From Cyprinodon diabolis (taxonomy: Eukaryota; Chordata; Actinopteri; Cyprinodontiformes; Cyprinodontidae), in NCBI GenBank assembly GCA_030533445.1, contig CM060065.1:28069974-28133973 (forward strand): a stretch of 64,000 nucleotides of DNA. The letters are read 5' to 3'. Numbering within the stretch: position 1 is the stretch's first letter; every line of letters starts with the position of its first letter. Both the position numbers and the translations under genes were made by a program. The notes under the pieces are model-generated. The model ran no database searches, was not told the origin of the DNA, and saw only the letters and a list, made by a program, of their open reading frames with translations. Below, in pieces: positions 9,272-21,876 of the stretch.

Positions 9272-21876
<12,605 letters not shown>

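Follow-up and report, generated by a model that had tools for sequence, protein, structure and literature searches.

The window analysed here, a stretch of 64,000 nucleotides from Cyprinodon diabolis, carries an intact AFG3L1 gene whose product, judged from its residues, is most likely a protease-dead and ATPase-competent subunit of the m-AAA protease, maintained for its motor and its part in the ring structure. The presence of Lys in place of the catalytic Glu in Cyprinodon AFG3L1 is confirmed as real. Window bases 20909-20923 (CACAAGGCAGGTCAT) encode HKAGH, with the AAG codon at 20912-20914, as the initial annotation had read them, and the splicing of 15 coding exons fixes the frame and hence this reading. 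The HEXXH motif with a catalytic Glu, which an active M41 metalloprotease requires, is therefore missing from the encoded protein. At the level of sequence, the gene has the marks of a pseudoprotease, in which the peptidase residue is gone, the ATPase residues are retained and the gene itself is maintained.

AFG3L1 lies on the plus strand of the window and was spliced by hand at AG acceptor and GT donor sites. The 15 coding exons between 10192 and 21876 yield 726 codons uninterrupted by a stop; adding the exon at 9314-9415 in frame gives 16 exons and 760 codons, so that the earlier statement that all 16 exons are in frame holds. Residue numbering throughout refers to the 726-aa form. The features are as follows.

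9314..9415, + strand: AFG3L1 exon 1, presequence, 34 codons; GT donor, frame continuous with the exon at 10192
10192..10276, + strand: AFG3L1 exon 2, presequence, with MALLIERR as an alternative start, the one used in the C. variegatus record; from splicing
10413..10475, + strand: probable decayed presequence exon, resembling the relatives' FEKLFPKRKEGTGSRTSAEN, carrying a stop and skipped in frame; from weak tblastn matches
10560..10672, + strand: AFG3L1 exon 3; from splicing
11364..11878, + strand: AFG3L1 exons 4-6 (11364-11513, 11595-11669, 11754-11878); first membrane segment and intermembrane-space domain
11963..12236, + strand: AFG3L1 exon 7; second membrane segment, AAA module begins
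13965..14340, + strand: AFG3L1 exons 8-9 (13965-14102, 14187-14340); Walker A, pore loop FVG, Walker B
14423..14530, + strand: AFG3L1 exon 10; sensor 1, RPGRFDR arginine fingers
19333..19732, + strand: AFG3L1 exons 11-12 (19333-19458, 19622-19732); AAA lid
20853..20968, + strand: AFG3L1 exon 13; peptidase M41 domain begins, contains HKAGH
20909..20923, + strand: HKAGH, Lys for the catalytic Glu of HEAGH; AAG codon at 20912-20914
21062..21590, + strand: AFG3L1 exons 14-15 (21062-21262, 21396-21590); remainder of M41 including zinc Asp581
21667..21876, + strand: AFG3L1 exon 16 and stop codon; from splicing

The matches of the exon at 9314-9415 to the N-termini of Girardinichthys and Fundulus in tblastn are weak (E ~0.1). 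The segment at 10413-10475 was found by tblastn with the relatives' proteins P0003, P0004 and P0006, again with weak matches (E 0.027 to 2.4), according to which its counterpart is coding in Anableps, Girardinichthys, Fundulus and Xiphophorus; in the window it is probably a dead presequence exon. Elsewhere in the gene neither the frame nor the splice sites are disrupted, and the frame-breaking changes that would have marked a pseudogene are absent.

The best database match of the window protein is the AFG3-like protein 1 of Cyprinodon variegatus, with 98% identity at 100% coverage and 17 differences, and the best match among solved structures is human AFG3L2 (PDB 6nyy, E 3.8e-228). The chain in 6nyy reads HQAGH, which we take to be engineered. 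Pfam domains were read on the C. variegatus protein P0002 as a 98% identical stand-in, in which FtsH_ext, AAA, AAA lid and Peptidase_M41 follow each other in the expected order. AAA (140.6 bits) and the lid (39.6 bits) score above cut-off and FtsH_ext slightly under it (25.3 against 25.5 bits), while the M41 profile still gives this HKAGH-type protein 180.6 bits, its cut-off being 29.9. The AlphaFold model of P0002, built from a 30-row alignment, is poor, with a mean pLDDT of 50. By its position nested in Cyprinodontoidei in the trees the window gene is an AFG3L1 orthologue, the choice of L1 over L2 resting on source names since the trees have no AFG3L2 outgroup. Walker A (GAPGTGKT), Walker B (IIFIDEID), the pore loop FVG and RPGRFDR are all present, and the zinc ligands H506, H510 and D581 are retained. 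The initial annotation had listed these motifs and the zinc Asp as kept, which is correct; its number for the latter, Asp629, fits neither the 726- nor the 760-codon form, and the residue is 581 in the 726-aa form.

The surroundings of the gene hold several further elements. A Tc1/mariner-type transposon occupies window positions 12266-13881 on the opposite strand, within the intron that follows AFG3L1 exon 7; with an uninterrupted 346-aa transposase ORF (12556-13596, DDE_3 and Tc3 HTH domains) between 204-nt inverted repeats of 100% complementarity, it looks young. A second Tc1-type transposase ORF of 397 aa, with Sleeping Beauty HTH and DDE_3 matches, is found at 31138-32331 on the minus strand. 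The 4.8-kb intron after exon 10 (14531-19332) appears by eye to consist partly of old transposon remains, including piggyBac-like minus-strand pieces at ~17000-18800 and another element nested near 17610-18450. Toward the end of the window there is a forkhead gene on the minus strand (61946-62956, Pfam Forkhead 126 bits), which we take to be FOXF1-like, and an ORF at 56778-57506, presumably MTHFSD-like, that has no Pfam match. The forkhead gene and the MTHFSD-like ORF suggest a neighbourhood in common with human 16q24, the location of AFG3L1P.

The distribution of the change among fishes was followed in three protein searches, from each of which the best 120 of ~7,990 matches were taken. The resulting alignment has 136 rows, made up of 135 proteins and the window, after removal of one row of 1440 aa. 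HEAGH is found in 114 rows, HKAGH in 9, HRAGH in 7, HQAGH in 2, HEAGR in 3 and HEAGY in 1. One of the four catalytic residues (E507, H510 or D581 being hit) is lacking in 23 of the 136 rows, a proportion that gives no frequency for fishes because dead lineages were among the seeds of the second and third searches. H506 is unchanged in every row, and no row has a double loss.

All 13 cyprinodontoid rows, from 7 genera, carry Lys or Arg at E507. Lys is present in the window, Cyprinodon variegatus (2 models), Anableps, Girardinichthys and Fundulus, and Arg in Xiphophorus, Poecilia (5 rows) and Poeciliopsis. These rows span 5 of the 11 Cyprinodontoidei families in the taxonomy. Glu is retained in the three aplocheiloids sampled; Kryptolebias and Nematolebias have the whole catalytic site intact, and Nothobranchius has lost a zinc His. 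The remaining losses at E507 are E to K in Anabas and Betta (Anabantoidei) and E to Q in two Oryzias species. Among the zinc ligands, H510 has become Tyr in Nothobranchius and Arg in both Mugil and Festucalex, and D581 is Asn in Echeneis. On this comparison the Lys/Arg state of Cyprinodontoidei is old and shared. As Glu occurs in none of the 13 rows, the HKAGH of the window is neither an assembly error nor a private allele, the two doubts raised when it was first noticed. Residue 314 of the pore loop also varies, from Val to Ala in Poeciliidae and Mugil (FAG) and to Ser in Anableps (FSG), and this altered pore loop 1 may affect the grip on substrates.

Steps were counted by parsimony on a FastTree tree of 111 rows, of which 18 are dead. 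The counts are four at E507, one of which is the K to R change in Poeciliidae, three at H510, one at D581 and none at H506. Seven losses are required. Three of them affect the Glu, which turns to K in Cyprinodontoidei (clade support 1.0) and again in Anabantoidei and to Q in Oryzias; three affect H510, which turns to Y in Nothobranchius and, separately, to R in Mugil and in Festucalex; and one turns D581 to N in Echeneis. Those in Nothobranchius, Mugil, Festucalex and Echeneis are each represented by one species. A tree from the ATPase domain only gives 5, 3, 1 and 0 steps at E507, H510, D581 and H506, with Anabas and Betta apart. On the same 111 rows no step occurs at any of eight ATPase residues (G, K and T of Walker A, D and E of Walker B, the sensor Asn and the two arginine fingers), and the pore loop takes two steps at F313 and four at V314. 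Several fish lineages thus appear to have disabled the cutting site of AFG3L1 independently. With seven losses of five substitution kinds, each at one residue, teleost AFG3L1 seems tolerant of the loss of its peptidase.

Constraint was compared between the two domains by a turnover ratio, which is the rate at columns invariant elsewhere divided by the rate at variable columns for each clade and domain. In the ATPase domain the ratio is 0.039 in Cyprinodontoidei (10 rows), against 0.034 in wrasses (7), 0.036 in pipefishes and seahorses (9) and 0.051 in other atherinomorphs (6). The corresponding protease values are 0.174, 0.031, 0.034 and 0.119; the Cyprinodontoidei ratios rest on 3 (ATPase) and 7 (protease) steps at invariant columns, and the live atherinomorphs are likewise fairly high in protease turnover. 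Deviation at conserved columns was also scored with near relatives left out, for one representative of each of the seven dead lineages, of our own choosing, and for 59 live rows. For the protease domain the dead lineages range from 0.031 to 0.168, compared with a mean of 0.019 in live rows; for the ATPase domain they range from 0.014 to 0.042, where live rows average 0.013. Protease erosion exceeds ATPase erosion in the dead lineages with a one-sided p of 1.2e-4, and ATPase deviation is raised too (p 0.006). There are exceptions, as Festucalex has little erosion and the live Xenentodon lies above six of the seven dead rows.

Branch lengths were compared as well. The protease/ATPase ratio is 1.5-2.2 on five of the seven loss-bearing branches, with 0.88 in Festucalex and 1.0 in Echeneis, the loss-bearing branch being the entire terminal branch for the four singletons. 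In three dead crown groups it is 0.78-0.97, against 1.21 summed over live branches. From these values we infer a burst of change near the loss, then a loosening of formerly fixed protease positions in a domain that would still be needed structurally. Wholesale decay of the protease domain is absent in the overall rate, and the erosion is confined to conserved columns. The view of the initial annotation that the gene is maintained as an ATPase rather than decaying is supported in so far as the ATPase catalytic residues are held and conserved protease positions are loosened. Its further sign of relaxed constraint, AEQVFF near the protease site, has to be dropped, since the same sequence is ordinary in Glu-bearing fish AFG3L1.

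When columns with at least 85% conservation across live rows are ranked by enrichment of change in dead lineages, G534 (in PRGKGLGY) comes first; it is altered by majority in four of the seven, and in Anabas, as compared with a single one of the 93 live rows (p 4e-5, uncorrected for the up to ~620 columns). Q604 ranks second and G536 third, and Cyprinodontoidei retain G534. The PRGKGLGY segment presumably adjoins the active site. Counting from HEAGH places F548 at the position of Y616 in human AFG3L2; three dead lineages have Leu there, and 3 of 93 live rows deviate. In a published patient, human Y616C weakens assembly with paraplegin (PMC3192828), and a bearing of the Leu at F548 on this assembly is offered as a lead only.

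Several other explanations were weighed against a motor-only subunit. It is rather unlikely that the dead subunit was selected to lower or retune proteolysis, yielding a less active or substrate-selective isoenzyme in particular tissues, and not for its motor. Such a role would suit the basic residue held in all 13 cyprinodontoid rows and both anabantoid species, as well as the Leu at the paraplegin-assembly position in three dead lineages; however, seven lineages with differing substitutions fit the loss of a dispensable activity better than they fit selection of a single inhibitory form. Slow decay, in which AFG3L1 is redundant with AFG3L2 and loses its protease site first on the way to becoming a pseudogene, is unlikely. 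The larger conserved-column deviation of dead lineages in both domains would be in line with it, as would the ATPase branch depths, larger in Cyprinodontoidei (0.20-0.28) than in six live atherinomorphs (0.11-0.21), the probably dead presequence exon and the recurrence of protease-dead states. However, constraint on the ATPase invariant columns of Cyprinodontoidei matches that in three live clades, none of the eight ATPase catalytic residues changes on the tree, the protease-dead state is common to five families, and the branch ratio after the loss gives no sign of a runaway. The 12 cyprinodontoid protein records, of 656-794 aa and free of X, point the same way, although they are predictions in which frame breaks may be hidden. 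The human gene of the same name is indeed a pseudogene that has lost its function (PMC2880309), whereas the frame and the ATPase residues of the window gene are intact.

That the protein is still a protease, another acidic residue having replaced the lost Glu, is very improbable. Cyprinodontoidei do have new acidic residues in the domain (A591E in all 10 tree rows, D580E in three), but two live rows with Glu and two dead lineages with Glu507 intact have A591E as well, and the E to Q change, which Oryzias shares, kills the activity of human AFG3L2 (PMC3192828). An assembly or annotation error is barely credible as a general cause. A single base substitution suffices for each change, and the singletons in Festucalex, Mugil, Echeneis and Nothobranchius could each be an error or an allele; against this, the changes are shared by 7 genera in Cyprinodontoidei, 2 species in Oryzias and 2 genera in Anabantoidei.

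As a motor-only subunit, the Lys-form AFG3L1 would join a ring in the inner mitochondrial membrane with active AFG3L2, paraplegin or both, and would spend ATP on gripping, extracting and threading substrates, whereas cutting would be delegated to the neighbouring AFG3L2 or paraplegin subunits. Rings rich in the Lys form might act rather as an unfoldase or a membrane dislocase. Published systems offer precedents. In yeast, AFG3L2 E575Q alone does not allow respiratory growth, which is restored together with paraplegin, the latter doing the cutting (PMC3192828); the m-AAA protease dislocates Ccp1 from the membrane and another protease then processes it (PMC5438985); and mouse Afg3l1 is reported to form homo- and hetero-oligomers (PMC2880309). 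One would expect from these precedents that the Lys form functions within mixed rings and that on its own it is useless or a pure unfoldase.

The window protein resembles the vertebrate m-AAA subunits AFG3L1 and AFG3L2 (M41) in domain order, ATPase motifs, zinc ligands and overall sequence, and differs from them in the Lys for the catalytic Glu and in looser conserved protease positions. The laboratory mutant E575Q has one substitution at the corresponding residue, identical to the E to Q of Oryzias; the fish change, in contrast, is natural and common to related species, and is Lys or Arg in cyprinodontoids. The chloroplast proteins FtsHi1-5 of plants likewise belong to the FtsH family, keep the ATPase, have lost the peptidase and form hetero-complexes, but they retain very few active-site residues (PMC11266112), whereas fish AFG3L1, a mitochondrial animal protein, loses exactly one of four. 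The string AFG3 is absent from that 2024 review of inactive metallopeptidase homologues, which in the passages covered gives only plant FtsHi1-5 for M41; in the passages covered of a 2026 review of mitochondrial AAA+ proteases, AFG3L1 comes up solely as a subunit in mouse and in one reference (PMC12994072). No vertebrate m-AAA pseudoprotease is reported in the titles and abstract openings of the AFG3L1 literature searched, a set with few subscription papers.

It is quite possible, though we put it forward tentatively, that AFG3L1 is a recurrently evolved vertebrate pseudoprotease, in which at least seven fish lineages keep the motor and ring subunit and discard the peptidase. The outcome would be natural m-AAA isoenzymes that cut at fewer of their sites, or an unfoldase or dislocase dedicated to the inner membrane. 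Subunits of the m-AAA protease are human disease genes, in SCA28 and SPG7 (PMC2880309), and its cutting and its ATP-driven extraction are hard to tease apart in animals. Here the cutting residue alone has been removed by nature, several times, including in the laboratory fishes medaka and turquoise killifish. If the proposal is true, medaka, Betta, a platyfish, mollies and turquoise killifish would be natural separation-of-function mutants of a machine linked to neurodegeneration, and the Lys-form AFG3L1, if made and assembled, would be a natural test of the usefulness of a motor-only subunit.
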